Assembly: GCA_025358295.1 (NCBI GenBank)
Contig: JANYJY010000025.1
Location: 1-40,256, forward strand
Source of the DNA: Gammaproteobacteria bacterium
GTDB taxonomy: Bacteria; Pseudomonadota; Gammaproteobacteria; Steroidobacterales; Steroidobacteraceae
Reading direction: 5' to 3'
DNA length: 40,256 bases
Below the pieces are notes generated by a model. That model did no database searches and was not told where the DNA came from. It saw only the letters and a program-made list of their open reading frames with translations. The position numbers and the translations under genes were made by a program. Every line of letters begins with the position of its first letter. Within the stretch, counting starts at the first letter, position 1. Below are positions 21,859-36,749 of this stretch, piece after piece.

Positions 21859-22460
21859 AAAAAGCTCCGACTCGCCGCCGCGCTCCCCTTTTCAAAGTGC
21901 GTCACTCGCCCATCCATGGATATGGAGTGTTTGCCGCGCGCCGCATTCGCAAGGGAACGACCGTCATCGAGTATCTCGGCGAGCGCGTGAGTCATGCGAA
22001 AGCCGATGCGCGCTACGAGGACAAGGACCCGAACGACAATCACACTTTTCTGTTCACGGTGGACGCGAGGACCGTGATCGATGCCGGCGTGAACGGCAAT
22101 GAGGCGCGGTACATCAATCATGGCTGCGACCCGAACTGCCAGAGCACGACCGAAAACAGGCGGATTTTCATCGAAGCCATTCGGACCATCCAGCCCGGCG
22201 AGGAACTCGCCTACGACTACCAGATCCAGCGCGACAGTGACGATGCGCCCAACGTCGATGAGATCTACGCCTGCCGCTGCGGAGCCAAAAATTGCCGCGG
22301 CAGCATGCTGGAGGAGCCCAAGAAGCCGCGCCAAGCCGCGCGGCGCGCGCCGCAGCGCGCCGCCGGGAAAAAGGGAGCTACCCGCAAAAATGGGGCAACT
22401 CGCAAGCGGGTGGCAAGGCGTGGCGGTACGGCGAAGCAGTCGCGGCGGAGTGGCCGCTGA
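21855..22460 (+). CDS. SET-domain lysine methyltransferase with basic histone-like tail
   Basis: A 201-residue protein whose residues 12-150 form a complete SET/post-SET domain: [26 protein letters not shown] (85-95), GEELAYDY (115-122) and the post-SET cysteines Cys140, Cys142, Cys147 with Cys95. SET enzymes methylate protein lysines using SAM. Residues 152-201 are almost entirely Lys, Arg, Ala and Gly with repeated GATRK units, like bacterial histone H1-type or AlgP tails, so DNA or RNA binding is likely. ATG 21855 overlaps the thyA stop (ATGA). The substrate is unknown; its own tail is one candidate. Confidence 0.88.
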
Positions 22461-23082
22461 CACCGATGTGTTCGCGCGCCGCCGATCCTTAAGCGTGGTG
22501 GCCGACTGGGGCGATGACTTGGGTATCGACGGTGTCGCCACTCGAGAGCAATTTCTGCCATCGGAGCAGATCCGCGCACTGGCCGAGTGCGCGAGGCTGC
22601 GACGGGAGCGGGGCGATTTCGGCGCGGCGCGCATCGGCAGCGATGAAACGCTGCAGCGTCGCGAGGAGATCCGCGGCGATTCTACCTGCTGGATAGTTCC
22701 ACCGCTTTTGACACCCGAAATTCCGTTGCTGGCTGAATTCGAACGCCTGCGTTTGGAGCTGAACATACAGGCTATGCTCGGTTTGTTTGAACTCGAGCTG
22801 CATTACGCGTGGTTTCCGCCAGGCGCCGGGTACGCACGCCACGTCGATCAACCCCTGGGACGCAGGCAGCGCCAGGTCTCTGTGGTGCTGTACTTGAACG
22901 AGAACTGGACGCCCGGGGCGGGGGGAGAGTTACGGATCTTCGGCGCTGACGAGCAGTATCGGGATATCGAACCGGTTGCCGGACGCCTGGTATGTTTTCT
23001 GACGCCGGGCCGCGAGCACGCGGTGCTGCCGACGAGCAGCGATCGCCTCAGCATCAGCGGCTGGTTCCGCGTCCGCGGTTAG
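22450..23082 (+). CDS. 2-oxoglutarate/Fe(II)-dependent oxygenase
   Basis: A prolyl-4-hydroxylase-like double-stranded beta-helix protein. Iron ligands His131 and Asp133 (YARHVDQP) and His190 (REHAVLP) are present, with Arg199 (SDRLSISGWFR) for 2-oxoglutarate; GGELRIF is a family landmark. Relatives hydroxylate protein side chains. The start is uncertain. GTG 22450 (210 residues, overlapping the SET stop by 11 bases) is used here, but GTG 22468, 22495 and 22498 are possible and ATG 22391 would overlap further. It follows the SET gene in the same apparent unit. Confidence 0.82.
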   Translation: MAADTDVFARRRSLSVVADWGDDLGIDGVATREQFLPSEQIRALAECARLRRERGDFGAARIGSDETLQRREEIRGDSTCWIVPPLLTPEIPLLAEFERLRLELNIQAMLGLFELELHYAWFPPGAGYARHVDQPLGRRQRQVSVVLYLNENWTPGAGGELRIFGADEQYRDIEPVAGRLVCFLTPGREHAVLPTSSDRLSISGWFRVRG

Positions 23083-23086
23083 CGCT

Positions 23087-23482
23087 GTGCCCGGGAGAAG
23101 AACATTCGCGGAACTATTCAGGCCGTCGAGTCGACCGACGTCGCGATCTTCGCAACCGGCGCAGCCCGAGGACAACCCTGCGATTCAAGCGATGTGGCAT
23201 GTGGTCTGTGCGATTCCTCGCGGTCAGGTCTTAACTTACGGGGTAGTGGCCCGTACCGCGGGGTTCCCGGGGCGTGCGCGTCAGGCAGGATTGGCATTGC
23301 GGCTTGCGCCCGATGCGATGAATCTCCCCTGGCATCGGGTCGTGGGCGCGGGCGGCCGCATCGTGTTTTCAAAAAATTCACATCAGCATAGGGAGCAGGC
23401 CAGGCGTCTGCGCGCTGAAGGCGTTTTGGTCAGAAACGGCCGCGTGCCCGATTCTGCCATGTCGCTGCTCGACGAGATCTAG
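23087..23482 (+). CDS. Alkyltransferase-like (ATL) DNA-binding protein, MGMT family
   Basis: It resembles the DNA-binding domain of O6-methylguanine-DNA methyltransferase: IPRGQVLTYGVVARTAGFPGRARQAGLAL, then NLPWHRVVGAGGRI. The acceptor cysteine of the PCHRV motif is Trp82 (PWHRV), as in ATL proteins. These bind O6-alkylguanine without repairing it and hand the lesion to nucleotide excision repair. There is an unusual N-terminal extension of about 30 residues rich in Arg/Ser/Pro. It starts at GTG 23087, four bases after the oxygenase stop. Confidence 0.88.
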   Translation: MPGRRTFAELFRPSSRPTSRSSQPAQPEDNPAIQAMWHVVCAIPRGQVLTYGVVARTAGFPGRARQAGLALRLAPDAMNLPWHRVVGAGGRIVFSKNSHQHREQARRLRAEGVLVRNGRVPDSAMSLLDEI

Positions 23483-23497
23483 GGAGGCGTAGCCTCC
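23483..23497 (+). terminator. Short GC-rich stem-loop after the ATL gene
   Basis: GGAGGC (23483-23488) pairs with GCCTCC (23492-23497) around a three-base loop, immediately after the ATL stop codon. No T-run follows, so it is at best a weak or factor-assisted terminator. It separates the lgt-thyA-SET unit from the catabolic locus. Confidence 0.3.
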
Positions 23498-23533
23498 GAA
23501 CGCAGCAAAAGCGTATGCTATAGTTTCAGTTAC

Positions 23534-23545
23534 TTGACGTGTCAA
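23534..23545. promoter_or_regulatory. Inverted repeat TTGAC-GT-GTCAA before the cyclase gene
   Basis: A 5-bp inverted repeat with a 2-bp spacer lies 15 bases before the cyclase ATG. A TATAGT box at 23519-23524 would start transcription near 23531, so the repeat would sit just downstream of the start point, a usual place for a repressor site. It does not resemble the CATATGATA element found elsewhere in this locus. The evidence is symmetry and position only. Confidence 0.35.
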
Positions 23546-23559
23546 CTAACGGATACCAC

Positions 23560-24345
23560 ATGAACTACTCGCAGACTCTTGCACAGTTGATCGGCGGCAT
23601 CGTCACCGGCGGCATTCGCGTGATCGATTTGACAGTGCCGCTCGCGGCGGAGACGCCCGTCATCAAGCTGCCGCCGCAATTTGCGCCGTCGAAATCATTC
23701 GAGCTCGAAGAGATCTCGCGTTATGACTCGCGCGGGCCGGCGTGGTATTGGAACAATATCTCGTGTGGCGAACATACCGGGACACATTTCGATGCCCCGA
23801 TACATTGGGTCACCGGCAAGGATTATCCGCAGAATGCGACGCATAATATTCCGGTGGATCGGTTCATCGGCCCTGCCTGCGTGATAGACGTCGCGCAACA
23901 GGCGCGGGAAAACGCCGATTTCCTGCTGACGACGGAAGTGGTCGAAAATTGGGAGCGCAAGCACGGCAAGATCCCCGAACACGCCTGGGTACTGATCCGC
24001 ACGGATTGGTCGAGGCGAGGCAGCGCCGAGGCATATCTGAATATTGCCGACGATGGTCCGCATACCCCGGGCTTTCATCCGGACTGTGTGCCATTCCTGG
24101 CGCGCGAACGCGACATTCTCGGCGTGGGCGTGGAGACGGTCGGTACCGATGCGGGTCAGGCAGCGACCTTCAATCCCATGTTTCCCTGCCACACCATCAT
24201 GCATGGATCGAACCGCTTTGGTCTCGCGAGCCTTACCAATCTCGACCAGCTGCCGCCCACCGGCGCCATCGTGATTGCGCCGCCGTTGAAAATCGTCAAC
24301 GGTTCCGGCAGCCCGCTGCGAGTGCTTGCCTTGGTGCCAGTTTAA
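23560..24345 (+). CDS. Cyclase-family metal hydrolase (KynB/isatin hydrolase type), cytoplasmic
   Basis: Members of this family (PF04199 type) are metal-dependent hydrolases, including bacterial arylformamidase KynB and isatin hydrolase. The metal motif is intact: H72-x-GTH76-x-D78-x-P-x-H82 (EHTGTHFDAPIHW). Further family segments are IRVIDLTVPLAAETP, HAWVLIRTDW and LGVGVETVGTDAG. There is no signal peptide. ATG 23560 gives 261 residues with ACGGA seven bases upstream; GTG 23539 would add seven residues. A second, exported member is encoded at 33.6 kb. The substrate is unknown; formamide or lactam hydrolysis is the family precedent. Confidence 0.85.
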   Translation: MNYSQTLAQLIGGIVTGGIRVIDLTVPLAAETPVIKLPPQFAPSKSFELEEISRYDSRGPAWYWNNISCGEHTGTHFDAPIHWVTGKDYPQNATHNIPVDRFIGPACVIDVAQQARENADFLLTTEVVENWERKHGKIPEHAWVLIRTDWSRRGSAEAYLNIADDGPHTPGFHPDCVPFLARERDILGVGVETVGTDAGQAATFNPMFPCHTIMHGSNRFGLASLTNLDQLPPTGAIVIAPPLKIVNGSGSPLRVLALVPV

Positions 24346-24351
24346 TCCGGG

Positions 24352-24855
24352 TTAACGCGATTTTGTGGTTGCGGAAGCGGCGATCCGCCGCTTGCGTTTC
24401 TTGGAATGCGGGGCTGGATGCGTTACTGAACCGGGCGCCTCGGAGTCGATCGCGAAGCGCTGCATCCGATTGACGAGTTCCGGTGGAATCGGTGTCGCCC
24501 GTGCGGTGGCGGCGGAAATGAACACGAGTACCTGCTTGGCGCGCATGCGCAACTCGCCTTGATGCGAGGCCTCGATGCGAAGTTCACAGGAAGTGGTGCC
24601 AGCTTTCACGGTCCAAAGATTGAAGGTCAGTCGCTCTCCGTAACGTGTCGGCCTGGCGAAATCGACGGTGAAATGCACGGAGGGCGTCAATATCTGCTTG
24701 TGGTGGAACAGCCCAGGAGCACTCGCCGCGAGACCGTCTTCGAACCAATCTTCAACGAAATCGCTGATCATTTCGAAATAGCGGGGATAGAACACCCAGC
24801 CGGCGGCGTCGCAGTGGCCGAAGCGAACCAGAATTTCGCGCTGAAATGCTGACAT
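24352..24855 (-). CDS. Hotdog-fold acyl-CoA thioesterase (4-hydroxybenzoyl-CoA thioesterase type)
   Basis: A 167-residue protein with the catalytic-loop pattern of this thioesterase class: VRFGHCDAAGWVFYPRYFEM, with Asp16 as the presumed catalytic residue, followed by VHFTVDFARPTRYGERL. The C-terminal 25 residues (PHSKKRKRRIAASATTKSR) are a basic tail not usual for the family. It converges on the cyclase gene with six bases between the stops. The substrate is unknown. It may serve the surrounding catabolic locus, since aryl-CoA or acyl-CoA products are plausible, or be unrelated. Confidence 0.82.
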   Translation of the reverse strand: MSAFQREILVRFGHCDAAGWVFYPRYFEMISDFVEDWFEDGLAASAPGLFHHKQILTPSVHFTVDFARPTRYGERLTFNLWTVKAGTTSCELRIEASHQGELRMRAKQVLVFISAATARATPIPPELVNRMQRFAIDSEAPGSVTHPAPHSKKRKRRIAASATTKSR

Positions 24856-24971
24856 GGCATGACTCCGCCGTTGATCTATTGCGCGAGCTTACCTGCAAGC
24901 GCCGGAAACCTGAACTGCCGCATTCCAGCGCGAGCCCGCCGGCCGCGACGGCAGATTCGTCATGCTAGACT

Positions 24972-24983
24972 GAACTCGAGTTC
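24972..24983. promoter_or_regulatory. Perfect palindrome GAACTCGAGTTC before the permease gene
   Basis: A 12-bp perfect palindrome about 30 bases before the permease start, in the likely promoter region (a TAAATA stretch follows at 24987-24992). It could be an operator. No second copy was noticed in the window, so the evidence is symmetry and position only. Confidence 0.35.
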
Positions 24984-25012
24984 GAATAAATAACCAGTAC
25001 TCAAGGGAAAGC

Positions 25013-26386
25013 GTGGACGCATCCGCGATTACCAGCCGTGAGGCGGGCCTTCACAAGGAACTGACCCGAGCGCAGCTCGTGATGATCGGCCTCGGCGGCG
25101 CGATCGGCACGGGCCTGTTCATGGGCAGCGGCCTCGCGATCGGCTATGCCGGGCCTGCGGTGATTATGAGCTACACCATTGCCGCGATCGCTGCGGCGGC
25201 CATGGTATTCAGCCTGTCGGAGATGGCGGTAATGCATCCGACCGCCGGTTCGTTCGGCACTTACGCTGAGATTTACTTGAATCCGTGGGCGGGCATGGTC
25301 GCTCGCTACTCATACTGGATGGCCCAGGTGATCGCCGTGGGCGGCGAGGCCGTCGCGGCGGGCGTCTATATGACGTTCTGGTTCCCCGGCACGCCGGTTT
25401 GGCTGTGGTCGGTGGGTTTCGCCTTTGTGCTCCTGTATTTCAATTCTCGATCGGTCAACAACTTCGGTTCGATTGAATACTGGTTCGCCCTCATCAAGGT
25501 CGTCGCCATCGTCATTTTCATCATCTTGGGATTGGCGGCCATCCTCGGCATAGGGTTCCAACCTATAGGTTTTCACAACCTGACCGGGTTGCCCGGCGGT
25601 TTTATGCCGCATGGATTCGGCGGCGTTTGGATGGCAGTGATCATTGGGATATTGTCGTTCAACGGCATCGAGGTGATCGCCGTCACCTCGGGAGAGGCCA
25701 AGGATCCGGTGCGGGCGATCCCGGCGGCGTTGCGCACCATGGCGCTGCGTTTGTTCCTTTTCTATGTACTGGCGCTGACCATCGTAGTGACCTTCGTCCC
25801 TTGGACCGAGACGGGGGCGAGCGTCGTGACCCAGAGCCCGTTCGTTCGGGTCTTCGCGCATTCCGGAATCCGCAATGCGGCCGGAATAATGAATTTCGTG
25901 GTGTTAAGCGCCGCGCTCTCGAGCATGAACACCAATGTGTATCTGTGCTCGCGAATGCTGTTCTCGCTGTCTCGGGGAGGGTATGCGCCGCGGTTTCTGG
26001 GAAAGCTCAGCAAGAACGGCACGCCGATCACGGCGATACTGCTCTCCGGCGCCTGCATCCTGCTCGCGGCAGGACTCTCCAAGCTGACGCCGCTCGCCTA
26101 CAACTACTTGTTCGGGGTCGCGTTGTTCGACGCGATGATCGTCTGGATCATCATTCTGCTCAGTCACTTGAGTTTTCGACGCAAACACAAGGTCGAAGAT
26201 TTGCCGGTGCGGATGCCCTGGTTCCCGTTCATACAGATTGCCGGCTTGACCCTGTTATGTGCCGTGCTGGTGACCATGGGTCTCGACAAGGACATCTGGC
26301 GCATCTCGTGGATAGTCGGAGTTCCGTGGCTGGCCGTGTTATCGGCCGCCTATTTCATTCTCAAGGCGCGCCGCGCCGGCGGCTAA
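25013..26386 (+). CDS. Amino acid permease (APC superfamily)
   Basis: A 457-residue inner-membrane transporter with about 12 hydrophobic segments. The N-terminus (HKELTRAQLVMIGLGGAIGTGLFMGSGLAIGYAGP) carries the conserved GGAIGTGLF motif of proton-coupled amino acid/GABA permeases. Other landmarks are FNGIEVIAVTSGEAKDP and the loop NVYLCSRMLFSLSRGGYAP. It starts at GTG 25013 with AAGGGA at 25003-25008. Its position inside the PLP-enzyme locus suggests that it imports the amino-acid-like substrate across the inner membrane (inference). Its stop overlaps the convergent lyase gene by four bases. Confidence 0.9.
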   Translation: MDASAITSREAGLHKELTRAQLVMIGLGGAIGTGLFMGSGLAIGYAGPAVIMSYTIAAIAAAAMVFSLSEMAVMHPTAGSFGTYAEIYLNPWAGMVARYSYWMAQVIAVGGEAVAAGVYMTFWFPGTPVWLWSVGFAFVLLYFNSRSVNNFGSIEYWFALIKVVAIVIFIILGLAAILGIGFQPIGFHNLTGLPGGFMPHGFGGVWMAVIIGILSFNGIEVIAVTSGEAKDPVRAIPAALRTMALRLFLFYVLALTIVVTFVPWTETGASVVTQSPFVRVFAHSGIRNAAGIMNFVVLSAALSSMNTNVYLCSRMLFSLSRGGYAPRFLGKLSKNGTPITAILLSGACILLAAGLSKLTPLAYNYLFGVALFDAMIVWIIILLSHLSFRRKHKVEDLPVRMPWFPFIQIAGLTLLCAVLVTMGLDKDIWRISWIVGVPWLAVLSAAYFILKARRAGG

Positions 26387-27351
26387 CCCGGCGTGCGGCC
26401 CTCAAGAATGGTCGCCAGCATTGAATTGTCGATATTTCCGCCCGAGACGACGGCGCAGACCCTGGTCTCGGCGTAACGTCCGGACAAGGCCGCGGCCACC
26501 GACACGGCGCCCGCGCCTTCGGCCACAATCCGATTGTGTTCGACCATGGTTTTGATGGCCGCGGCCACTTCGTTCAGCGATACGGTGATGACATCGTCGA
26601 TCATGGCTTGCGCCAGCGGCCACATTTCAGGCAGGACCGTACCAAAGCCCACGCCGCTGACGAAGCCCGGCGCGTGCGCGGTCTCAACCGGTGCGCCGGC
26701 GGCGCGCGCCGCTTTGAGCGGGTGCGCGCTCTGCAATTCGCAAGCGATGATTCTCACATCCGGTCGCAGCGCGCGTACCGCGCAGGCGATGCCGCAGGCA
26801 AGACCACCGCCGCCGAAGGGAATCATGATTGCTTCGACGTCTGGCGACTGCGCAAGGATTTCCAGTCCAATAGTGGCATCGCCCGCCAGCGAAGCGGGGT
26901 CTCGCACCGCATCGATGTATACGCCCGCCCGATCGGCAAGGACGCCGCTGCGGATGGCCTGCCACCATTCCTCGGTCGGGCGCATCTCGATTCGCGTGCC
27001 CAGGCGCCGCAGCTTCTCAAGCTTGGCTTGCGGCGCGTTCATGGGAACGACGGCGGTCGCGGCAATGCCGAGCCGGCGCGCCATGAAGGCGACACCGAGC
27101 GCGCTATTGCCGGTGCTGGTCGTATAGATTCCCGAATTCAAGTCGGCGCGCGCTCTCGCGAGCACGGCGTTGCCGATGGGCCGGATCTTGAACGACCCGA
27201 TGGGCTGCAGGTTTTCGAGCTTCAGACAGACGGACTTGCCGGCCGGTGCGGCCTCGCAGGCGACGAGCGGCGTGACCGAACTCAAGCCGTGGAGACGCGT
27301 TTGAGCTGCCTCGATTTGCGTCATGGGAACCGGCTTTACAGTGTCGAACAT
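26383..27351 (-). CDS. Fold-type II PLP lyase, threonine dehydratase-like (paralogue 1)
   Basis: The PLP lysine is in GSFKIRP (Lys55 from this start). TSTGNSALG is the substrate loop, PFGGGGLACGI binds the PLP phosphate, and VSGGNID completes the fold. No C-terminal ACT domain is present. Threonine/serine dehydratases usually have FK-x-RGA after the lysine; here a proline replaces the glycine. ATG 27351 (322 residues) is chosen because AAGGA lies nine bases upstream; ATG 27369 adds six residues. The gene points away from the class V operon, and the shared upstream region holds the CATATGATA operator. A dehydratase, racemase or ammonia-lyase reaction on a hydroxy-amino acid is likely. Confidence 0.85.
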   Translation of the reverse strand: MFDTVKPVPMTQIEAAQTRLHGLSSVTPLVACEAAPAGKSVCLKLENLQPIGSFKIRPIGNAVLARARADLNSGIYTTSTGNSALGVAFMARRLGIAATAVVPMNAPQAKLEKLRRLGTRIEMRPTEEWWQAIRSGVLADRAGVYIDAVRDPASLAGDATIGLEILAQSPDVEAIMIPFGGGGLACGIACAVRALRPDVRIIACELQSAHPLKAARAAGAPVETAHAPGFVSGVGFGTVLPEMWPLAQAMIDDVITVSLNEVAAAIKTMVEHNRIVAEGAGAVSVAAALSGRYAETRVCAVVSGGNIDNSMLATILEGRTPG

Positions 27352-27405
27352 CGTTGTTGGTCCTTGCATGCCGGCGTCAAAATACCCGGTGCCAGTGGCT
27401 CATAA

Positions 27406-27434
27406 TTGCACAATCATATGATATTGCATATAAT
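27406..27434 (+). promoter_or_regulatory. Promoter and operator of the class V/OCD/lyase/MarR operon
   Basis: TTGCAC (27406-27411), a 17-base spacer and a perfect TATAAT (27429-27434) form a strong sigma-70 promoter, with start expected near 27441. The spacer and -10 are covered by CATATGATA-N3-CATAT (27415-27431), which has CATAT repeated at a 12-base interval. ATCATATGAT (27413-27422) is a perfect palindrome, flanked symmetrically by TGCA on both sides (27407-27410 and 27425-27428). The same element recurs at the receptor promoter in the same register. It is the probable site of the MarR protein encoded as the last gene of this operon. Confidence 0.75.
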
Positions 27435-27468
27435 AAAACGCCTAAATAATTGCGATCGGAGCGGCGAC

Positions 27469-28620
27469 ATGGAACCGAACTTTCAGGCCTTGCGCAAGGA
27501 ATTCCCAGTGCTGGCGCGCAAGACCTACTTGAACAGCGGTTCCTACTGCGCTCTTGCGAACGACGTGAAGGCGGCCTTCGAAGCGTACATGGAGGACCGT
27601 CTGCTGGTGGGCGCGAATTGGGATGTATGGATCACCAAGAATGAATCCGTGCGAGCGCTGACGGCAAAGCTGCTGAACGCCGCTCCCGATGAGATCGCGG
27701 TTACCGCGTCGGTGTCCGCCGGTCTCAATGCGCTGGCGAGCGCGCTTGATTTTTCGGGGCCGCGCAACAAGGTCGTGATCAGCGACTTCGAGTTTCCTAC
27801 CAACGCCCAGATCTGGCACGCTCAGGAGCCGCGTGGCGCGCGGGTGGTTCATGTGCCGCGCGCCGCGGACGGCTACATACCATTGGAGAATTTCGCCAAG
27901 GCCATCGACGAGAACACCCAGCTCGTGGCCATCACGCATGTGTGCTTCCGCAACGGCGCCAAACTGGACATTCCCGGCATCGTCCGTCTCGCTCACGCCA
28001 AGGGCGCCAAGGTGCTGCTCGACTGCTACCAGGCCGTGGGCTCGCTCGACATCGACGTCAAGGCGCTAGAGCTCGATTTCGCCGTCGGTGGGATGCTCAA
28101 ATATCTGCTCGGTACGGCGGGAATCGCTTTTCTCTATGTGCGCGACTCATTTATTCAATCCCTCCTGCCGACGAACAGCGGCTGGTTCGCTCAGGCCGAC
28201 ATTGGCGCCATGGACATCACCGCCAATCGACCGGCGCCGAGCGCGCGCCGCTTTGAAGCCGGCACGCCGGCCGTCGTGAATGCCTACGCGGCCGAGGCAG
28301 GACTGAAGTTTCTGTTGGCTGTGGGCACGCCGGCCATCGAGAAGCGCAACTACGCGCTGACACGGCGTTGCATGCAGAGACTGCAGGAGATCGGCTGGGC
28401 GAGCGTGACGCCGGTCGAGGATGAGCGTCGCGGCGCCACAGTTGCCGTTGCTGCGCGTGACAGCGGTGGATTGTCCAAGGAGCTCATGAAGCGCGACATC
28501 GTGACTTCGCATCGCGATAAGAATATCCGTGCGAGCTTCCATTTCTATAATAATGACGACGATGTGGAATCCTTCATCGCGGCCATGAAGGAATTGCGCG
28601 GCTCATTCAATCCGGCATAA
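27469..28620 (+). CDS. Class V PLP-dependent enzyme (aminotransferase/kynureninase-like)
   Basis: A fold-type I PLP enzyme of 383 residues. The cofactor lysine is Lys211 (VGGMLKYLLGTAGIAFLYVR) and Asp185 (LLDCYQAVG) pairs with the pyridine nitrogen. LNSGSYCAL at the N-terminus and RFEAGTPAVVNAYAAEAGL near the C-terminus are class V features. Kynureninases, cysteine desulfurases, isopenicillin-N epimerases and class V aminotransferases share this fold, and I cannot choose among them. ATG 27469 has CGGAG seven bases upstream; an upstream GTG at 27406 lies inside the promoter and is rejected. It is first of four closely packed genes (gaps 9, 5 and 2 bases). Confidence 0.88.
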   Translation: MEPNFQALRKEFPVLARKTYLNSGSYCALANDVKAAFEAYMEDRLLVGANWDVWITKNESVRALTAKLLNAAPDEIAVTASVSAGLNALASALDFSGPRNKVVISDFEFPTNAQIWHAQEPRGARVVHVPRAADGYIPLENFAKAIDENTQLVAITHVCFRNGAKLDIPGIVRLAHAKGAKVLLDCYQAVGSLDIDVKALELDFAVGGMLKYLLGTAGIAFLYVRDSFIQSLLPTNSGWFAQADIGAMDITANRPAPSARRFEAGTPAVVNAYAAEAGLKFLLAVGTPAIEKRNYALTRRCMQRLQEIGWASVTPVEDERRGATVAVAARDSGGLSKELMKRDIVTSHRDKNIRASFHFYNNDDDVESFIAAMKELRGSFNPA

Positions 28621-28629
28621 GGGGGCACG

Positions 28630-29613
28630 GTGGAAATTCGGGTCCTGCGGGGAGCGGATGTGCGGCGGCTGCTGCCGATGGCGGAATGCATTGATCTCAT
28701 GCGCCAAACCATGATCGCCACGGCGGAACGGCGCGTCGTGTTGCCGCTGCGTTCCGTCATGGTCATGCCGGACGACAAGGGCATGCTTGGCAATATGCCG
28801 GGGTATCTCGCCGATCCCGAGTGCTTTGGGGTCAAGCTGGTGAGCCTGATTCCACGCAACAAGCCGCCGCAGTACTCCTCGCACCTGGGATTGGTGCTGC
28901 TGTTCGAAGCCGAACACGGCCAGCCGGTGGCGCTGCTCGACGCCGCCGAAATCACTGCCATACGCACAGCCGCTGCCAGCGGATTGGCGACCCGCCTGCT
29001 GGCTCTCCCGCAAGCTGGTGACTTGGCGTTGTTGGGAGCCGGCGAGCAGGCCCGCAGTCATCTCCAAGCCATGTTGGCAGTACGAACGCTGCGGCGCGTT
29101 CGAGTATGGGCACGCGATCTCGACAAGGGGGCCGAGTTTGCGCGAGCGGAGGGCGCCCGTCATCGAATCGATATCGAGACGTCGGCTTCGGTGGCAGACG
29201 CGGTCAAGGGCGCGGACATCATTTGCACTCTGACCAAGGCGCGCGAGCCCATCCTGAGGGGCGAGTGGCTGGCTCCCGGCGCGCATTTGAATGTGGTGGG
29301 TTCCAGTATTGCCGCCACCGCGGAAATCGACACGCCGGCAGTGGTGAAATCGCGCTTTTTCGTCGACTATCGAGAATCCACCATCAACGAAGGCGGCGAA
29401 TACCTTCGAGCGCTCAAGGCCGGCGCCATTACGCCGCAACACCTTTTGGCGGAGATAGGAGAAGTCGCGAACGGATCCAAGCCCGGCAGACTCGCGCCCT
29501 CCGATGTCACTCTGTACAAGTCCTTAGGCATTGCGCCGCAAGACCTCGCCTCCGCCCACTATGTGCTCGAAAAGGCTCGCGCAGCCGGCTTGGGACAGGT
29601 CATCGATTTCTAA
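28630..29613 (+). CDS. Ornithine cyclodeaminase/mu-crystallin family protein
   Basis: NAD(P)-dependent family acting on amino/imino acids: ornithine cyclodeaminase, alanine dehydrogenase, ketimine or iminosuccinate reductase. Landmarks are GVKLVSLIPRN (with Lys69), LLDAAEITAIRTAAASGLAT, the Rossmann loop LALLGAGEQARSHLQAM (G136-x-G138) and FFVDYRESTINEGGE. The 327 residues are normal. The start is GTG 28630. Pairing with a fold-type II PLP enzyme recalls EutB/EutC, SbnA/SbnB and BhcB/BhcD, where the two act in sequence. Imine reduction after the lyase step is therefore a reasonable guess, not a proof. Confidence 0.9.
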   Translation: MEIRVLRGADVRRLLPMAECIDLMRQTMIATAERRVVLPLRSVMVMPDDKGMLGNMPGYLADPECFGVKLVSLIPRNKPPQYSSHLGLVLLFEAEHGQPVALLDAAEITAIRTAAASGLATRLLALPQAGDLALLGAGEQARSHLQAMLAVRTLRRVRVWARDLDKGAEFARAEGARHRIDIETSASVADAVKGADIICTLTKAREPILRGEWLAPGAHLNVVGSSIAATAEIDTPAVVKSRFFVDYRESTINEGGEYLRALKAGAITPQHLLAEIGEVANGSKPGRLAPSDVTLYKSLGIAPQDLASAHYVLEKARAAGLGQVIDF

Positions 29614-29618
29614 CAGCC

Positions 29619-30593
29619 ATGCCTGCGGCTTCAGACCTGGCATTGCCGACGAGCGAAGAGGTGAGCGCCGCGCGCGACAATATTCGCGGCTCTGCCGTTC
29701 GGACCCCGTTGCTCCGGCTGTCGGCCGCCATTCCTGGCGTCAATGTTTTTCTCAAGCTGGAGAATCTTCAACTCCTGGGCTCGTTCAAGATTCGGCCTGC
29801 AATCAATGTGCTGAAAGTCATGGACCCCGAGCTCCTTAAGCGTGGGGTGTTGACTGCAAGCGCCGGAAATTTTGGCTTGGGGCTGGTGTTCGCGGCACGC
29901 CAGATCGGCGTGCCGGCTACGGTCGTCGTGCCGGAGGGCTCTGCGATGACCAAGGCGAACGCACTGGCTGAACTTGGCGCAAAGGTCATTCGGCTGCCCT
30001 TCGATAACTGGTGGAGCGTGCTCACCAACCGCCGCTATCCCGGCGAGGAGGGTGTATTCGTCCATCCGGTGGCCGAGTCCGGTGTGATGGCAGGTAACGC
30101 CACCATCGGCGCGGAAATTCTCGAGGATTTGCCGGATTGCGACGCAGTAGTAGTGCCGTTTGGCGGCGGCGGCTTGGCCTGCGGCATCGGTTCGGTGATG
30201 CGGCGCCTGAAACCTGCCGTGCGCATGATTGTCGCCGAATCGGAAGCGGCGCAGCCGGCCGCGGCCGCGATTGCAGCGGGAGGACCCGTGCGTGTACGCC
30301 ACTTGCAGAGCTTCGTCGATGGCATGGGAAGTTCCACGGTGCTGGATCAAATGTGGCCGTTCATTCGCGACATGGTGGATCAAGCGACGTGCGTTTCATT
30401 CGCGCAAATCACGGATGCGATTCGGCTGCTCGCGGGCCGCCACCATGTCATCGCCGAGGCGGCCGGCGCTGCCTCGGTGGCTGCCGCCATGGCTGGACTC
30501 GCCGGCACGGGCAATATCATCTGTATAGTTTCGGGCGGTAACATCGACCTGCCCAAATTGGGCGCCATACTCAACGGACAGAGTCCCTTCTAA
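29619..30593 (+). CDS. Fold-type II PLP lyase, threonine dehydratase-like (paralogue 2)
   Basis: This is a second enzyme of the same unusual subtype as the one at 26.4 kb. PLP lysine Lys57 is in GSFKIRPAINV, the substrate loop is TASAGNFGLG, the phosphate loop is PFGGGGLACGI (180-190), and VSGGNID is near the end. Both paralogues have FKIRP and a double Trp (NWW here, EWW there) in the same region, so they come from one duplication or joint recruitment. ATG 29619 gives 324 residues; a long frame extending back into the previous gene is a shadow. It lies five bases after the cyclodeaminase-family gene. Confidence 0.88.
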   Translation: MPAASDLALPTSEEVSAARDNIRGSAVRTPLLRLSAAIPGVNVFLKLENLQLLGSFKIRPAINVLKVMDPELLKRGVLTASAGNFGLGLVFAARQIGVPATVVVPEGSAMTKANALAELGAKVIRLPFDNWWSVLTNRRYPGEEGVFVHPVAESGVMAGNATIGAEILEDLPDCDAVVVPFGGGGLACGIGSVMRRLKPAVRMIVAESEAAQPAAAAIAAGGPVRVRHLQSFVDGMGSSTVLDQMWPFIRDMVDQATCVSFAQITDAIRLLAGRHHVIAEAAGAASVAAAMAGLAGTGNIICIVSGGNIDLPKLGAILNGQSPF

Positions 30594-30595
30594 CT

Positions 30596-31078
30596 ATGAC
30601 GGCAACAAAACGCCCTAAAATCACCGAGGAAAAATCATCGGCATCGCCTGATCAGGCTATGTTCGACGATTTTCTGCCCCATTTGATTGCGCGGCTCGCC
30701 TATCAGCTCAACGGCGATCTGGTCGAGAAGTTGCGGCGCGAGGGCATCAATGTCACGCGTTGGCGAATTTTGGCCGTGCTCGCGATGGGCGACGGTATCA
30801 CCATCAACGAAATCATCGATCGCGCGATGATGCAGCAGTCGGCGCTCAGTCGAGCGCTGATGAACATGGAGAAAGAAGACTATGTTCGGCGGGTGCTGCG
30901 ACGCGAGGATGCTCGCTACGTCGAGGTGTACCTGACCGACAAGGGGCGCGCGCTGTTCAACTCACTCAACGTCGTGGTGCGCCGCCGTCAGCAGCGTCTG
31001 TTGAAGGGATTTTCTCCTCAGGAACTCGCCACGGCGTTCGAACTGATGCGCCGTCTCAGCGGCAATATGATGCGCTGA
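30596..31078 (+). CDS. MarR-family transcriptional regulator
   Basis: A 160-residue winged-helix protein. The recognition region is INEIIDRAMMQQSALSRALMNMEKEDYVRRVLRREDARYVEVYLTDKGRALF, with the wing Arg-Glu-Asp-x-Arg typical of MarR. The helices at both ends form the dimerisation surface. It is the last gene of the class V operon, two bases after the lyase. It is most simply the repressor of its own operon and of the receptor operon, whose promoters share the CATATGATA-N3-CATAT element. MarR proteins usually release DNA when they bind a phenolic or other small ligand, often the pathway substrate. Confidence 0.9.
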   Translation: MTATKRPKITEEKSSASPDQAMFDDFLPHLIARLAYQLNGDLVEKLRREGINVTRWRILAVLAMGDGITINEIIDRAMMQQSALSRALMNMEKEDYVRRVLRREDARYVEVYLTDKGRALFNSLNVVVRRRQQRLLKGFSPQELATAFELMRRLSGNMMR

Positions 31079-31147
31079 GTGGCGAGAACGCGCCACGCTG
31101 GACCGGCCGCTTTAGGCCATTGCGCCGTATCAGTGTTCAAAGTGTAG

Positions 31148-31168
31148 GTTGCGCGCAACAATTTTTTT
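31148..31168 (+). terminator. Possible intrinsic terminator after the MarR gene
   Basis: GTTG (31148-31151), loop CGCG and CAAC (31156-31159) are followed by AA and seven T (31162-31168). The stem is short, so termination would be weak. The T-run also lies just upstream of the receptor promoter -35 box and could act as an UP element. Confidence 0.4.
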
Positions 31169-31173
31169 GTGAC

Positions 31174-31202
31174 TTGATATTTCATATGATAACTCATATT
31201 GT
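31174..31202 (+). promoter_or_regulatory. Promoter and operator of the receptor/cyclase/CDGSH-cupin operon
   Basis: TTGATA (31174-31179), a 17-base spacer and TATTGT (31197-31202) form the promoter, with start expected near 31209. CATATGATA-N3-CATAT occupies 31183-31199. Over 22 bases (31181-31202 against 27413-27434) 16 positions agree, counted by eye. In both promoters the -10 box begins 16 bases after the first base of this window. A repressor here would cover the spacer and -10 and block RNA polymerase. Confidence 0.72.
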
Positions 31203-31229
31203 AATTGGACAATAACGGAGGGACTGCTG

Positions 31230-33629
31230 ATGCGCGCCATTAAGAGCCTGTGTTCTGAGCGAAACAGAAAGCCGAGCCGCATGCTCGCTGCCGGTGCCGG
31301 CTTTGCCGCGCTGTTGAGCCTGTCGTTCGTCGCGCAAGGCGAGTCATTGGGCGGAGCGAGTTCCGGCGGGTTGGACGAAATCATCGTCACTGCTAACAAG
31401 CTGAATTCGCAAAAGGTTCTCGATATTGCCGCTTCCATCCAGGCCATCAGCGGTGAGGCGCTGCAAGCCGCGGGCGTGTCCGGCATCATGGATATCGCGG
31501 GCAGCATTCCCGGCCTTTCGATTCAGGATCTTGGTCCCGGCGATAAAAAGTATGTGATCCGCGGGATCAACTCCACCGGCGACTCGACCATCGGCGTCTA
31601 TTATGGAGAGGCGGTGATCAGCGGCTCGAATGCCGATGACGGCGGCGGCTTCGAATCCGACATTCGATTGTACGATTTAGATCGCATCGAAGTGCTGCGA
31701 GGCCCCCAAGGGACTCTATACGGCGCAAGTTCCATGAGCGGGACCATCCGCTTCATCCCGAAGTCGCCGGACATGAACACCGTCGGAGGGTACGTGACGG
31801 TCGAAGGTTCGGAGACCTCCCACGCCAGCGGCAATTACAATGTGAATGGCGCGCTCAATCTTCCCATCATCGACGGCGTGCTGGCGCTGCGCATGGTGGG
31901 CTGGAAACTCTACAACAGTGGCTACGTCGACCAAATTCGCGTGGGTCAGGGTGTCACCGGACTGGTCAATATCGGCACCCGTGCCGTTCCGAACTATCAA
32001 TCGGAGCCGGTCCCAGCCTTGGGTTCAATGAAGGGCGTCAATGACGACGTTGTCGGCGGCGGGCGGGCGATTCTGCGTTGGCAGCCGACCGACAAGCTGG
32101 CCATCGAGGCCAATTACACCTCGCAGACCGAGACTTCCGGCGGCTCGTCGCGCTACACGCCCGCGGGCGTCACGGCATTCAACGCCGGCGCCGGCAGCAA
32201 CATTCCGCCCGTGCAGGGCTGCGATCTATGCAACACCGATGTGACTCAGAGCCCGTGGAGCGACAACCTCAAGGTGTTCGGCACCACCATTACCTACGAC
32301 ACGGGCAAGGGTGTCGTGACGGCGACCACGAATCAGTTCAATCGCAGAACCGACTTTGGTTTCGATTCAACGCCCATTCTGGTGTCCTTCCATGTACCCG
32401 TGCCCGCCCAGACATTCGAGCCGCGTAATCGGGAAGTAAACTCCAGCGAGATCCGATTCGCGAGCGCATTCGATTCCGCCGTCAACTTTGTTGCCGGCGT
32501 GTACCGCGACCATACTCATCAGGTGCTGGACGTACAGGTAATCGCGACCGGTGGCACCGGCCTGCCGACGGGGCCGTTCTGCAGTGCGAATAGCTGCGAT
32601 GCCTTAACTTTTCCCGGCGTCGGTACCACCTTCTTCGGGCGAGAGGATGAGCGCCGGTCGACTTCCTACGCAGGCTTCGGCGAGGCAACATGGAAGATCA
32701 CGGACGCCTGGACGGCGGTCGCCGGCATCCGATATTTCACGGAGTCCTTACAGGGCGTACAGACGCAGACTCACCCGTTCGGCGGCTTTCCCGGCTCGCC
32801 GACGCTGGTGCCGCTCCCCGATCCGGACCAGAGCTTCAATAAACTTACGTGGAAGGCCAACTTGAGCTACAAATTCAGCGACAGCTTGCTGGCCTACGGC
32901 ACAGCGTCGACCGGATTTCGCAGCGGCGGCCTGAACGCGATCAGTGAACCTTTCGAGCCGATTCCGGCCGCCTACTCGCCGGATACTCTGACGAACTATG
33001 AACTGGGCGCCAAGGGGCGTCTGTTGAACGGCATGTTCGACTATCAGGCCGACGTGTACCTGATCAAGTGGAGCAACATTCAGGTGCAGGAGACCACCGG
33101 AGACGGAGCGTTCGTTTACCAGGGCAACGCAGGTGCAGCCACCGTCAAGGGCGTGGAATTCGAGTTCACTGCGCATCCCATGCAGTACCTCAGCGCCGGA
33201 TTCGCGGGTTCTTACTCCCATGCCTACCTGACGCAGGGAGCTACCGCCGCTCAATATGCACTGAATCCCACGCTGGGGCTGGCGGGCAACGACATTCCGA
33301 ATGTGCCGAAGTACCAGTTCAGCTTCAATCTCAAGTACCGTCAGCCCATCGCCAATGGCTGGGACGGGTTGGTGTCGACCAACGTGACCTACCGCGACGG
33401 TGTGGATTCATATTTCTCGTCCAACCGATTCAACATTGCTTTGGCTCCCTACACGTTGGTGGGGCTGCAGATGGGTGTGACCAACGGTCCTTGGAGCATC
33501 ACTGCCTTTGCGCGCAATTTGACCGACAAGCGCGCGCAGGTATCGGCCATCAATTCCAATCAGGATCCGGATGCGCTGTTGACCGTGCGGCCGCGGACGA
33601 TTGGCGTGACCTTGACGCGAACTTTTTAG
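31230..33629 (+). CDS. TonB-dependent outer-membrane receptor
   Basis: A 799-residue receptor for energised uptake of a large or scarce solute. A signal peptide (to about residue 37) is followed by a TonB box (DEIIVTA, 49-55). The plug has QAISGEALQAAGVSGIMDIAGSIPGLSI, YVIRGINSTGD, and IEVLRGPQGTLYGASSMSGTIRFIPKSP. The beta-barrel ends in the terminal aromatic residue (TLTRTF). It resembles the FecA-like receptors with a GTIRF plug motif that are abundant in bacteria degrading plant or aromatic compounds, rather than a typical siderophore receptor. GGAGGG at 31217-31222 supports ATG 31230. It is first of three tightly linked genes. Confidence 0.92.
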   Translation: MRAIKSLCSERNRKPSRMLAAGAGFAALLSLSFVAQGESLGGASSGGLDEIIVTANKLNSQKVLDIAASIQAISGEALQAAGVSGIMDIAGSIPGLSIQDLGPGDKKYVIRGINSTGDSTIGVYYGEAVISGSNADDGGGFESDIRLYDLDRIEVLRGPQGTLYGASSMSGTIRFIPKSPDMNTVGGYVTVEGSETSHASGNYNVNGALNLPIIDGVLALRMVGWKLYNSGYVDQIRVGQGVTGLVNIGTRAVPNYQSEPVPALGSMKGVNDDVVGGGRAILRWQPTDKLAIEANYTSQTETSGGSSRYTPAGVTAFNAGAGSNIPPVQGCDLCNTDVTQSPWSDNLKVFGTTITYDTGKGVVTATTNQFNRRTDFGFDSTPILVSFHVPVPAQTFEPRNREVNSSEIRFASAFDSAVNFVAGVYRDHTHQVLDVQVIATGGTGLPTGPFCSANSCDALTFPGVGTTFFGREDERRSTSYAGFGEATWKITDAWTAVAGIRYFTESLQGVQTQTHPFGGFPGSPTLVPLPDPDQSFNKLTWKANLSYKFSDSLLAYGTASTGFRSGGLNAISEPFEPIPAAYSPDTLTNYELGAKGRLLNGMFDYQADVYLIKWSNIQVQETTGDGAFVYQGNAGAATVKGVEFEFTAHPMQYLSAGFAGSYSHAYLTQGATAAQYALNPTLGLAGNDIPNVPKYQFSFNLKYRQPIANGWDGLVSTNVTYRDGVDSYFSSNRFNIALAPYTLVGLQMGVTNGPWSITAFARNLTDKRAQVSAINSNQDPDALLTVRPRTIGVTLTRTF

Positions 33630-33642
33630 CAGGAATGATTGA

Positions 33643-34620
33643 ATGACGGCGCGGGTCCAGCGGTCGGCCGCTTGGCGAATTGTCGTGTCGTTTCTCGGTT
33701 CGGCGCTGTGCGTGGGTGTCGGACAGAGCGCGAGATCTCAAGTCCAAGGTGGCAAGGGAATGCCACTTTGGAATTTCTATCACTCGACGTTGAGCCACGC
33801 GAAGTACATCGACTTGACGCATGCAATCGCGCCCGGCGGCCCCATTGGCGAAGGATTTGTCGATTTCAAAGTGGGTCCGACCTTGGCGGGAGTGGCCATC
33901 CCGGGCGTCATCAACCTAGGCGAGCCCTTCAGCTATGAGAAGCAGGGCGCAGCGATCACCGCCTACGATTTGCCGATGGACCATATCGGCACTCAGTTCG
34001 GGCCGCCCGCTCACCTGAACGAACATGGTGCCACCATCAGTGATATTCCGCCGACGGTCGCGCTGCGTCCCTTGGTGGTGATCAATGTCGCTCCCCAGGT
34101 GGCGGCCGATCCGGGCTACCAGGCGACCGTTGCCGACATCAAACGATGGGAGCACCGCCACGGGCCGATTCCCAACGGCTCCGTGGTGATGATTCGATCC
34201 GACTGGTCGAAGCATTGGAGCGAACCCAAGCGATTTACGACTGCGCCGTTTCCCGGAGTAAGCTTGGCGGCTCTCAAGTACTTATACTTGGATCGGCATG
34301 TTTTGATGCATGGACACGAACCCTTGGACACCGACAACACGGCACCGGAATTTGTGGGCGAGAAATGGCTGCTGGAGCATAATTTTGCCCAGGCTGAGGG
34401 AGTTGCCAATCTCGATTTGGTTCCCGAGAGCGGCGCTCTCATCTCCATTGGTTTCGCTAGGTTCGAAGGCGGAACCGGCGGATTCGCCCGCTACATTGCC
34501 ATCGCACCGGCGAGTTGGCATTACGGCGTGACCATCGATCAACAGCCTGGTGCACCCCTGCCGACTCATGAGCATCCGCTACGACGCGGGGCGGATGGCG
34601 TGCTGAGAGAATCCCCATGA
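33643..34620 (+). CDS. Exported cyclase-family protein with altered metal motif
   Basis: This is the second PF04199-type protein of the locus, 325 residues, with an N-terminal signal sequence (hydrophobic core about 11-27) implying a periplasmic location. The family motif H-x-GTH-x-D-x-P-x-H reads H114-IGT-Q118-F-G120-PPAH124, so one histidine and the aspartate ligand are replaced by Gln and Gly. Other family segments are kept: YIDLTHAIAPGGPIGEG, GSVVMIRSDWSKHW and the C-terminal ALISIGFARFEGGTGGFARYIAIAP. Activity may use a different metal set or be lost. It lies 13 bases after the receptor gene and overlaps the next gene by four bases. Confidence 0.85.
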   Translation: MTARVQRSAAWRIVVSFLGSALCVGVGQSARSQVQGGKGMPLWNFYHSTLSHAKYIDLTHAIAPGGPIGEGFVDFKVGPTLAGVAIPGVINLGEPFSYEKQGAAITAYDLPMDHIGTQFGPPAHLNEHGATISDIPPTVALRPLVVINVAPQVAADPGYQATVADIKRWEHRHGPIPNGSVVMIRSDWSKHWSEPKRFTTAPFPGVSLAALKYLYLDRHVLMHGHEPLDTDNTAPEFVGEKWLLEHNFAQAEGVANLDLVPESGALISIGFARFEGGTGGFARYIAIAPASWHYGVTIDQQPGAPLPTHEHPLRRGADGVLRESP

Positions 34621-35684
34621 GCGACACCAAGAGTCTCCCGGTCATTGCCAACCGCAAGGGCTACTACTATGAGATCAAGGCCGGGAAGCGCTATTTGTGG
34701 TGCAGTTGCGGGCGCTCCAAGAGTCAGCCGTTCTGCGACGGTTCGCACGCCGGCACCGGCTTTCTGCCGGTTGCGCACAAGGCGGAGCGAGACGAGGACG
34801 TAATCTTCTGCGGCTGCAAGCACACGGCCACGCCACCGTTTTGCGATGGTGCCCACAGTAATTTGCCGGGCGGTTATCTCACCGACGAGCCTGACAGTTC
34901 GGAAAATCGGCGAATCGCGATGCGCGCGGCCGGGCCCGAGCCCATCGTGCAGCTCGACGGCCGATGCTATGTGTTTGCCACGTCACGCGCGTCGCTGACG
35001 TCGCAGGGGGCGATGGGCTACTGCCCCGTGGTAAGCCCGGCCACGGGAGCGCAGTTTCAATCGCAGTTCTACGCGGAAGTTGTTCGCGGCGCCTCGCCCG
35101 TGATTTCCGCCGACGGACGGCACACGGTGTTGTTCGTGACCGAAGGCGCGGGCGAGATCGAGATCGGTGGACGCCGCTTTCCCGTGGGCGCGCGCACCGG
35201 CATATACATCCGTCCAAGTGAAGCGTACCGAATACACAACGAGAACACGGCTCTCGTGAAACTCTTCATATCGAACGGGCCCGGCAGCGAAGATCTTGTC
35301 TGGCTGGACGATATGCCGACGAACTTCGAAGCGCAATTCCCTCAACGCGAGGCGACGGTGGACCCCGCGCAGCGGCACAAAATGGCCGAACGCTACTACC
35401 AAATGCTGGTAAACCGCGAGCACGGTTCGACCGTGGTGACGCAATTCATCGGCAATATTCCGCTGTCGAAGGCTGAACCGCATCGACATCTGTATGAAGA
35501 AGCGCTGATATTTCTGAATGGCGCGGGTGTGGTTTGGACCGAGACCGTCAAAACCACAGTCGCCGCGGGAGATGTTCTATTCCTGCCGCGCAAGCAATTG
35601 CACTCGGTACAATGCACGACACCGGGCGGCTTCGACATCGTCGGCGTCATCTATCCCGGCGACAACCCCTCGATCAACTACTAA
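34617..35684 (+). CDS. Tandem CDGSH iron-sulfur domain fused to a double cupin
   Basis: Residues 29-44 (C-S-C31 ... C40-D-G-S-H44) and 65-80 (C-G-C67 ... C76-D-G-A-H80) are two complete 3Cys-1His [2Fe-2S] CDGSH motifs. A bicupin follows. Cupin 1 (about 145-220) lacks clear metal ligands. Cupin 2 (about 270-350) has H289-x-H291, Glu294/295 and H329 (LPRKQLHSV), a normal metal site. Tandem CDGSH proteins of bacteria are usually stand-alone and under 100 residues. The fusion suggests an oxygenase-like or isomerase-like cupin supplied with electrons by the iron-sulfur part (inference). It has no signal peptide. ATG 34617 overlaps the cyclase stop (ATGA). Confidence 0.85.
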   Translation: MSDTKSLPVIANRKGYYYEIKAGKRYLWCSCGRSKSQPFCDGSHAGTGFLPVAHKAERDEDVIFCGCKHTATPPFCDGAHSNLPGGYLTDEPDSSENRRIAMRAAGPEPIVQLDGRCYVFATSRASLTSQGAMGYCPVVSPATGAQFQSQFYAEVVRGASPVISADGRHTVLFVTEGAGEIEIGGRRFPVGARTGIYIRPSEAYRIHNENTALVKLFISNGPGSEDLVWLDDMPTNFEAQFPQREATVDPAQRHKMAERYYQMLVNREHGSTVVTQFIGNIPLSKAEPHRHLYEEALIFLNGAGVVWTETVKTTVAAGDVLFLPRKQLHSVQCTTPGGFDIVGVIYPGDNPSINY

Positions 35685-35752
35685 AGCCCCGACCAGAGTG
35701 CCGACTCATTGCGTTGCAGGCCATTGCTGACGGACCTTGGGTGGGCCGCCTC

Positions 35753-35775
35753 GGAGACCGGTTCAAACCGGGGGC
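35753..35775 (+). repeat. Left inverted repeat of the ISKra4-type remnant
   Basis: GGAG-A-CCGGTTCAAAC followed by CGGGGGC. It is the reverse complement of 36416-36438 except at position 35757. Confidence 0.8.
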
Positions 35776-35819
35776 AAGCCGAAACCGATGCTACGCTGCC
35801 GCGACCATCGAGGGCGGGG

Positions 35820-36368
35820 GATATCACTTTTCTGTCGGACGGCTGGGACACCGTGCGTCAGGCCCAACTCGGATTCGGGCCGTGGGGCGAGTAAGTGCTC
35901 GATTGGTTTCACATCGGCATGCGGTTCCAGAATCTCACGCAGCTGGCTAAGGGCCTGGAGGAAACCGATGATAGCCCCAAGCGCGGCGCAATCCTGAAGG
36001 ACATTGAAGATGCCAAATGGCACTTGTGGCATGGTTCAGCGTACCGAGCGATTCAACGTCTTGGGTCGCTGACCTGGGACGTCGAGGCAATGCCAGACGG
36101 GGAAGCGAAGACCAAGCTGACGGCGAAACTTGGGGACTGCCTAACCTACATCGATAACAACCAGAGCTTCATCGTCAATTACGGCGACCGCTTCCGGCCT
36201 GGCGATCCGATCGCCAGCGGATTCGTCGAATCGGCGGTGAACCAGGTGGTGGCCAAACGTTTCGTGAAGCAGCAGCAGATGCGGTGGTCTGATCAGAACG
36301 CCCATCGCTTGCTGCAGGTACGAACAGCTGAGCTCAATCGTCAGCTACGTCGACACTTCGAGCACTAG
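35820..36368 (+). pseudogene. ISKra4-family transposase, C-terminal fragment with in-frame stop
   Basis: The frame reads DITFLSDGWDTVRQAQ, then a TAA at 35892-35894, then an open stretch from GTG 35895: LDWFHIGMRFQNLTQLAKGL, IKD-like and KWHLWHGS segments, YIDNNQSFIVNYGDRFRPGDPIASGFVES and VNQVVAKRFVKQQQMRW. WFHI-x-MR, KWxLWHG, FVES-x-VNQVV-x-KRF-x-KKQQMRW are hallmarks of the ISKra4 transposase C-terminus. The N-terminal and middle parts are missing, so the copy is dead. The 157-residue open part may still look like a gene to automatic tools. Confidence 0.85.
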
Positions 36369-36415
36369 TATCCTGGAATCGCAGCCAATGATTCCAGCGC
36401 ACAGCTCGCAGCATA

Positions 36416-36438
36416 GCCCCCGGTTTGAACCGGCCTCC
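36416..36438 (-). repeat. Right inverted repeat of the ISKra4-type remnant
   Basis: It ends 70 bases after the transposase stop. GCCCCCGGTTTGAACCGG is the exact reverse complement of 35758-35775, and the repeat continues five more bases with one mismatch. Confidence 0.8.
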
Positions 36439-36749
36439 AAAAAAAGCCGCTGACCAAGGCAAGATCGCATCGATCGATAACGTCGGAGTGACGAAATCAT
36501 GTGTGAATCTGGGCAACCATGGAGCATTTGAGCGGCCAACGTTCGTCCGGTCATGGAGGGAAAGAAATCCGGTCATGAAAGATAAACGAGATCAGGACGA
36601 GCCAATCGCGCATGCTGCGAACAATGGCCGGAGTTGGCTGCGTTCGCAAGTCTATAACTCAGTCGCAGAGTGCGGCAGAATCGCAATTCGCCATGGACAG
36701 GGCGCCGGCTCGGCAGGACCTCCGGCTGACATCGGGAATGCCATGGTCA
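36439..36749. other. Gene-free stretch between the ISKra4 remnant and the ATP-grasp gene
   Basis: An open frame of 124 codons on the plus strand crosses this stretch, but its translation resembles no family I know, has no ribosome binding site and starts inside the inverted repeat. I see no repeat, tRNA or promoter worth naming. It is probably decayed mobile or inserted DNA. Confidence 0.35.

Follow-up and report, generated by a model that had tools for sequence, protein, structure and literature searches.

A conserved inverted repeat at two promoters as the predicted operator of one MarR-family regulator in a Steroidobacteraceae genome

Two promoters in the window analysed here, a 40,256-nucleotide stretch of DNA from a gammaproteobacterium of the family Steroidobacteraceae (assembly GCA_025358295.1, contig JANYJY010000025.1, positions 1 to 40,256), carry the same inverted repeat of 16 base pairs (bp), ATATG-N6-CATAT: one in front of an operon that begins with a class-V pyridoxal phosphate (PLP) enzyme gene of the aminotransferase type and ends with the gene of a MarR-family regulator, and the other in front of an adjacent operon that begins with the gene of a TonB-dependent receptor. 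The repeat is conserved at both promoters in related genomes and occurs together with marR, which makes it very probable that one regulator controls both gene groups together, as a preliminary description of this DNA had proposed. Both elements very probably serve as operators for the MarR protein of the gene at 30596-31078, which would repress both promoters until its release by a ligand.

27416-27431, no strand: operator 1 (predicted), inverted repeat ATATG-N6-CATAT, in the gap between the divergent PALP1 gene and the class-V PLP enzyme gene
31184-31199, no strand: operator 2 (predicted), inverted repeat ATATG-N6-CATAT, 5' of the TonB-dependent receptor gene
27406-27434, plus strand: promoter 1 (predicted), TTGCAC-17-TATAAT, hexamers at 27406-27411 and 27429-27434, the repeat lying in the spacer and reaching into the beginning of the -10
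31174-31202, plus strand: promoter 2 (predicted), TTGATA-17-TATTGT, hexamers at 31174-31179 and 31197-31202
30596-31078, plus strand: MarR-family regulator of 160 amino acids, final gene of operon 1; Pfam MarR_2 45.5 bits, MarR 33 bits

The element had initially been read as CATATGATA-N3-CATAT, and exact matches to this form are indeed found at 27415-27431 and 31183-31199; the reported agreement between the two sites, 16 letters of 22, is true for the frame 27413-27434 and rises to 17/22 one or two bases further on. CATAT does recur at 12 bases, as had been stated, because CATATG is itself palindromic, but the same letters appear to read better as an inverted repeat of two 5-bp arms and a 6-bp gap. 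At site 1, all ten arm letters are invariant in 8/8 sequences, while the leading C, on which a direct repeat depends, is a T in 5/8 and a C in 3/8, which disfavours the direct-repeat reading. The arms of site 2 are kept in 9/9 sequences at each letter except one (8/9); the leading C is kept there in 9/9 as well, so that this site alone cannot separate the two readings. Outside the stretch from -35 to -10, most columns agree in only 3-6 of the 8 or 9 sequences, and MAFFT alignments of the intergenic gaps (8 sequences each), which were not anchored on the repeat, give the same picture. Each site also has, 12 bases further upstream and overlapping the -35, an imperfect second copy of the repeat that departs from it at two of ten letters (27404-27419 and 31172-31187); a second dimer may sit there side by side with the first.

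Both promoters had been described as good sigma-70 promoters. The 17-bp spacing holds at both, but the -35 of promoter 1, TTGCAC, is weak, with only 3/6 consensus matches. The claim of an equal register proved exact: at both sites 13 bases separate the start of the -10 from that of the repeat, which occupies the spacer and the first three bases of the -10. Such a position, inside the spacer and over the -10, points to a repressor, and a MarR site overlapping the -10/-35 is associated with repression in the literature (PMC12016517). The hexamers are conserved as well: with our own genome included, the -35 of site 1 begins with TTG in 8/8 sequences and its -10 is TATAAT in 6/8, one letter being different in the other two, while at site 2 the -10 is TATTGT in 8/9 and the -35 at 17 bp begins with TTGA in 8/9. 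A promoter scan matched both places (27407-27434, read as TGCACA with a spacer of 16, and 31174-31202); over 22001-40256, however, it returned five promoters against a shuffle mean of 5.9, so the promoters by themselves prove nothing.

Site 1 also faces the divergent PALP-family gene PALP1, a point left out of the preliminary description, and may serve both directions, operon 1 and PALP1. On the minus strand, a possible -10, TATGAT (27418-27413), extends the other arm of the repeat; inspection by eye found no -35 for the divergent gene at site 1, so that its control from this site is only possible.

Support comes from relatives that possess the regulator. Among 148 related genomes searched, seven others carry a MarR orthologue of at least 71% identity (G027, G013, G009, G020, G017, G073, and G021, the last as two contig ends), the next match being at 33%. 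The search of the whole family gave 11/217 genomes matching MarR at an E-value of 1e-30 or better, our own included, which adds G151, G192, and G193; at the level of the order, 8/396 genomes matched, all within this family, and at the level of the class, our own genome was the sole match among 369. A scan of named genomes gave ten loci, nine of which were taken as the same records and one of which, BA202, was additional, so that the MarR-bearing set comprises 12 genomes, our own included. Among plasmid records, 120 gave a match, every one below 60% identity. The preliminary description had called for a search upstream of orthologous operons, and the element is kept there throughout: the exact repeat stands at the aminotransferase promoter in 10/10 MarR-bearing genomes that hold it (our own, the seven listed above, G192, and G193; in G151 and BA202 the contig stops short of it), and the promoter of the receptor gene carries the repeat in 11/11 MarR-bearing genomes with a receptor, eight times exactly and three times with one mismatch. 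Where the receptor gene follows marR, the gap between them has the exact repeat in 8/9 cases, the ninth, BA202, having one mismatch. In G009, the twelfth genome, a receptor match is absent at an E-value of 1e-60. When 11 MarR-bearing genomes were scanned whole, 21 of 24 exact repeats were located at genes of the cluster.

Some individual loci have features of their own. After marR of G009, there is a decayed operator 2 with three mismatches (L036, 9368-9383). G073 has a third exact repeat before an amino-acid permease gene (L039, 4186-4201), suggesting that the regulon of this organism includes the permease. In BA202, the cluster, with a MarR 77% identical to ours, is on a contig labelled Caulobacteraceae (L078), which would reflect either a transfer between classes or a misbinned contig.

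In G192 and G193, the genes are unlinked: marR, the aminotransferase, and the receptor are on three separate contigs, each with the repeat. The marR gene has an exact repeat upstream and stands before a class-V PLP gene other than that of the window, the two sharing 28-29% identity (L073, L074); on the second contig, an exact repeat is in the gap between PALP1 and the aminotransferase gene; on the third, the receptor orthologue (73% identical) is preceded by a repeat with one mismatch, and TTGACA can be read 17 bp from the -10 position. The aminotransferase promoters of these two genomes were first found through the repeat itself, but in a protein search that aminotransferase was the only match at an E-value of 1e-60 in each genome, which removes the selection bias. 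On the second contig of both genomes, a one-mismatch repeat is also seen before a CDGSH-coding stretch near the permease (L127, 9132-9147; L128, 1112-1127), a possible further target.

Relatives lacking the regulator provide the counterpart. The aminotransferase is found at an E-value of 1e-60 or better in 20/148 genomes, of which eight carry the MarR orthologue and 11 do not, their MarR matches being weak only; in the remaining one, G054, the aminotransferase gene has a distant MarR gene as its neighbour. The 11 genomes without the orthologue have 12 aminotransferase places; at 12/12 of them, the closest approach to the repeat in the 300 bp upstream differs in 3-5 of ten letters, and the fetched loci of these genomes, in which receptor genes were scanned only where they fell inside, contain no repeat within one mismatch. 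G087 has kept the divergent pair of PALP1 and aminotransferase genes, about 23 bases apart, and has neither the repeat nor the MarR orthologue; the absence of marR from G014 is weak evidence, the assembly being 71% complete.

The protein itself is a convincing member of its family. Its MarR domain scores above the curated cut-offs (PF12802, 45.5 bits against 27; PF01047, 33.0 bits against 24.6), and the best structure model (mean predicted local distance difference test score, pLDDT, 75; predicted template modelling score, pTM, 0.63; the other four models had pLDDT of 38.9-67.9) has helices at residues 18-48, 53-64, 70-77, 81-93, 115-135, and 141-159 and strands at 97-101 and 109-113, an arrangement that places a winged helix-turn-helix between dimerisation helices, as the family requires. 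Foldseek matched MarR structures to it at a probability of 1.00; by sequence, the best solved structures are unnamed MarRs (3cjn, 3cdh, 2fa5), with the auxin MarRs next. The protein does not qualify as the homoprotocatechuate regulator HpaR (TIGR02337, 48.8 bits against a cut-off of 121.2). MarR operators are about 16-20 bp long (PMC12016517), and MarR dimers contact their palindrome in consecutive major grooves, through the recognition helices (PMC5487221); a 16-bp inverted repeat in the regulated promoter would be an operator of just this kind.

Based on these data, the following scheme can be proposed. A MarR homodimer would bind ATATG-N6-CATAT and, lying over the spacer and the first three bases of the -10, would block RNA polymerase. 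The regulator would in this way repress its own operon, which encodes the class-V PLP enzyme, an ornithine cyclodeaminase (OCD) family enzyme, a PALP-family enzyme, and MarR, as well as the adjacent operon of the TonB receptor, a cyclase, and a CDGSH-cupin protein, and possibly also the divergent PALP gene. Release of MarR by a small molecule connected with the pathway would induce uptake and catabolism together.

That the two matches are a mere chance likeness of AT-rich promoter DNA has a practically negligible probability, even though the promoter scan did not exceed its shuffles and a genome of this size should contain about 0.9 repeats by chance. For the 14 fixed letters of the element as first described, a first-order model of both strands gives an expectation of 3.6e-5 in the window, and in the 200,440 bases of the window and 13 related loci chosen for MarR or the aminotransferase, the repeat occurs exactly 19 times with a spacer of 6 against 0.045 expected, while the same arms at spacers of 0-5 and 7-15 do not occur in these 14 sequences at all. 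In our own 4.02 Mb genome, the exact repeat is at three places, namely the two sites and one within an open reading frame (ORF) of 563 amino acids; as the composition of these loci would predict about 0.9 (the reversed control gave 0), the genome-wide count alone is weak, and it is the pairing of the two sites and their conservation in relatives that chance does not provide. Allowing one mismatch raises the number of places to 32, while the reversed control yields 14; 29 of the 32 carry a mismatch, and the 12 of these that were examined all lie within ORFs of at least 90 amino acids. A wide regulon in this genome is not supported, as beyond the two sites the sole exact match is the intra-ORF one. 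Hardly more credible is that only the core promoters are conserved, with no operator in them. It is true that the -35 and -10 hexamers are conserved along with the repeat; however, the arm letters within the spacer are conserved to the same degree as the hexamers and are palindromic, the repeat before marR in L073 and L074 is kept with almost no -35 (1/6), and G087 has neither the repeat nor the MarR orthologue despite keeping the gene pair, albeit across a gap of only some 23 bases. Several observations nevertheless weigh against the interpretation of the repeat as the operator of this MarR. Among them are this near absence of a -35 at the marR repeats of G192 and G193 and, in G020, a displacement of the site 2 -35 by 2 bp. 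Exact repeats are not rare as such, being present somewhere in 72/148 relatives, so that mere presence says little and the place is what counts; three of the 24 in the MarR-bearing genomes are away from cluster genes (contig C14 of our own genome, C522 of G017, and C121 of G193). The relatives are akin to one another, and the genome counts are not independent. A related repeat just upstream of each of four distant MarR genes (32-34% identity) speaks for the interpretation, but these four were picked from among many distant matches, not sampled, G137 and G146 (with three and six exact repeats in their genomes, respectively) having been chosen for an adjoining exact repeat; the distant MarR of G054, which adjoins the aminotransferase, has a repeat with one mismatch before marR and another with two before the aminotransferase, and that of G103 has a repeat with two mismatches.

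A more serious alternative, although still quite improbable, is that the repeat belongs to a different transcription factor and that MarR is a bystander. About 22 bp upstream of operator 2, at 31149-31161, there is a further conserved element, TTGCGCGCAACAA, within which TTGCGCGCAA is a perfect palindrome in the window and in G021 and of which GCAACA is kept in 6/8 aligned sequences, our own included; it could be the site of another factor, and other factors may therefore act at this promoter. The repeat itself, on the other hand, is not seen before the aminotransferase gene of relatives that lack the MarR orthologue, precedes marR where that gene sits among other genes (L073, L074), stays with the target genes when they are unlinked, and has a geometry that suits MarR dimers. 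It is somewhat less improbable, but still unlikely, that MarR does bind here and activates transcription, or acts both ways. The precedent is BhbR2, a member of the MarR family that activates from a TTGATT-N5-AATCAA site (PMC12016517); that site, however, covers the -35 (-22 to -43), whereas here the repeat lies in a spacer of the normal 17 bp and over the -10, which is the placement of a repressor.

The remaining genes of the two operons and the divergent gene are as follows.

26383-27369, minus strand: PALP1, divergent PALP-family gene facing operator 1; Pfam PALP 203.9 bits; divergence kept in relatives
27469-28620, plus strand: class-V PLP enzyme (SufS/kynureninase-like), promoter-proximal gene of operon 1; Pfam Aminotran_5 162.8 bits
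28630-29613, plus strand: ornithine cyclodeaminase/mu-crystallin family enzyme; Pfam OCD_Mu_crystall 233 bits
29619-30593, plus strand: PALP-family enzyme (threonine-dehydratase-like); Pfam PALP 206.7 bits
31230-33629, plus strand: TonB-dependent receptor, promoter-proximal gene of operon 2; Pfam TonB_dep_Rec_b-barrel 129.2 bits, Plug 55.2 bits
33643-34620, plus strand: cyclase-family protein; Pfam Cyclase 97.8 bits
34617-35684, plus strand: CDGSH iron-sulfur and cupin protein; Pfam zf-CDGSH and Cupin_2

The genes of operon 1 are separated by gaps of 9, 5, and 2 bases. Among solved structures, the class-V PLP enzyme matches an unnamed aminotransferase best, then cysteine desulfurases, with kynureninase lower; the cyclase, whose N-terminus by eye resembles a signal peptide, matches an unnamed cyclase-family protein best and isatin hydrolases next. 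Downstream of the CDGSH-cupin gene there are two ORFs, 35754-36440 and 39119-40213, which from their appearance we take to be pieces of transposases; the former is flanked by apparent inverted copies of a GGTTCAAACCGGGGGC-type sequence.

As for the pathway, an NCBIfam scan of ten proteins gave no score reaching a cut-off that would name it. Hydroxyectoine degradation was considered and rejected, both for EutB (the better PALP protein scores 196.6 against 413.35 with TIGR02991 and 209.2 against 413 with NF005680) and for EutC (TIGR02992, 197.6 against 471.65), as were the beta-hydroxyaspartate cycle (BhcA 21.8 against 650, BhcB 173.1 against 550, BhcD 148.5 against 500, by NCBIfam cut-offs) and the kynureninase equivalog (TIGR01814, 95.9 against 246.4). 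The gene set combines the TonB receptor, an isatin-hydrolase-like and perhaps exported cyclase, the CDGSH-cupin protein, the kynureninase/SufS-like PLP enzyme, OCD, and two PALP enzymes; even where marR has moved, in G192 and G193, its neighbour is a class-V PLP gene. We suggest, quite tentatively and with well under an even chance of being right, that a single signal acts through one MarR sensor to switch an entire, undescribed module of uptake and catabolism, and that this signal may be derived from an aromatic amino acid, in the manner of kynurenine or isatin. The regulon joins genes that annotation alone would leave apart, the conserved repeat offers a route to the inducer and hence to the substrate, and the operator can be tested with natural controls, namely the relatives without this MarR and those with the genes unlinked.

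In the accessible parts of the literature searched, a MarR regulon of this make-up was not found described, and the ATATG/CATAT matches met there were primers, not operators. The circuit is nevertheless an ordinary kind of control, of the MarR type, around a cluster that curated families leave unnamed, and four known systems come closest to it. MarR_73 (IadR) of Variovorax and IacR are repressors of auxin catabolism with a short operator, released by the substrate (PMC9613470); like them, our protein is a MarR in a catabolic locus, and structures from that work, in which the DNA site was 24 bp, are among its best sequence and fold matches, although the identity in the fold search is 23-30% and the unnamed structures mentioned above match its sequence better. 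In the uricase/hucR system of Deinococcus, one MarR site in a divergent gap controls both sides (PMC5487221), as site 1 may do; here, however, the gene across the divergent gap belongs to the PALP family, marR closes its operon, and the neighbouring operon has a second site. BhbR2 of Pigmentiphaga, also of the MarR family, has a 17-bp AT-rich imperfect palindrome in a catabolic promoter and differs in activating from a site over the -35 box (PMC12016517). The linkage of a catabolic operon with TonB-dependent uptake genes, finally, is known for PheR of Sphingobium, which, unlike the regulator considered here, belongs to the IclR family, its effect on the TonB genes having been reported from transcriptomes (PMC13273656).

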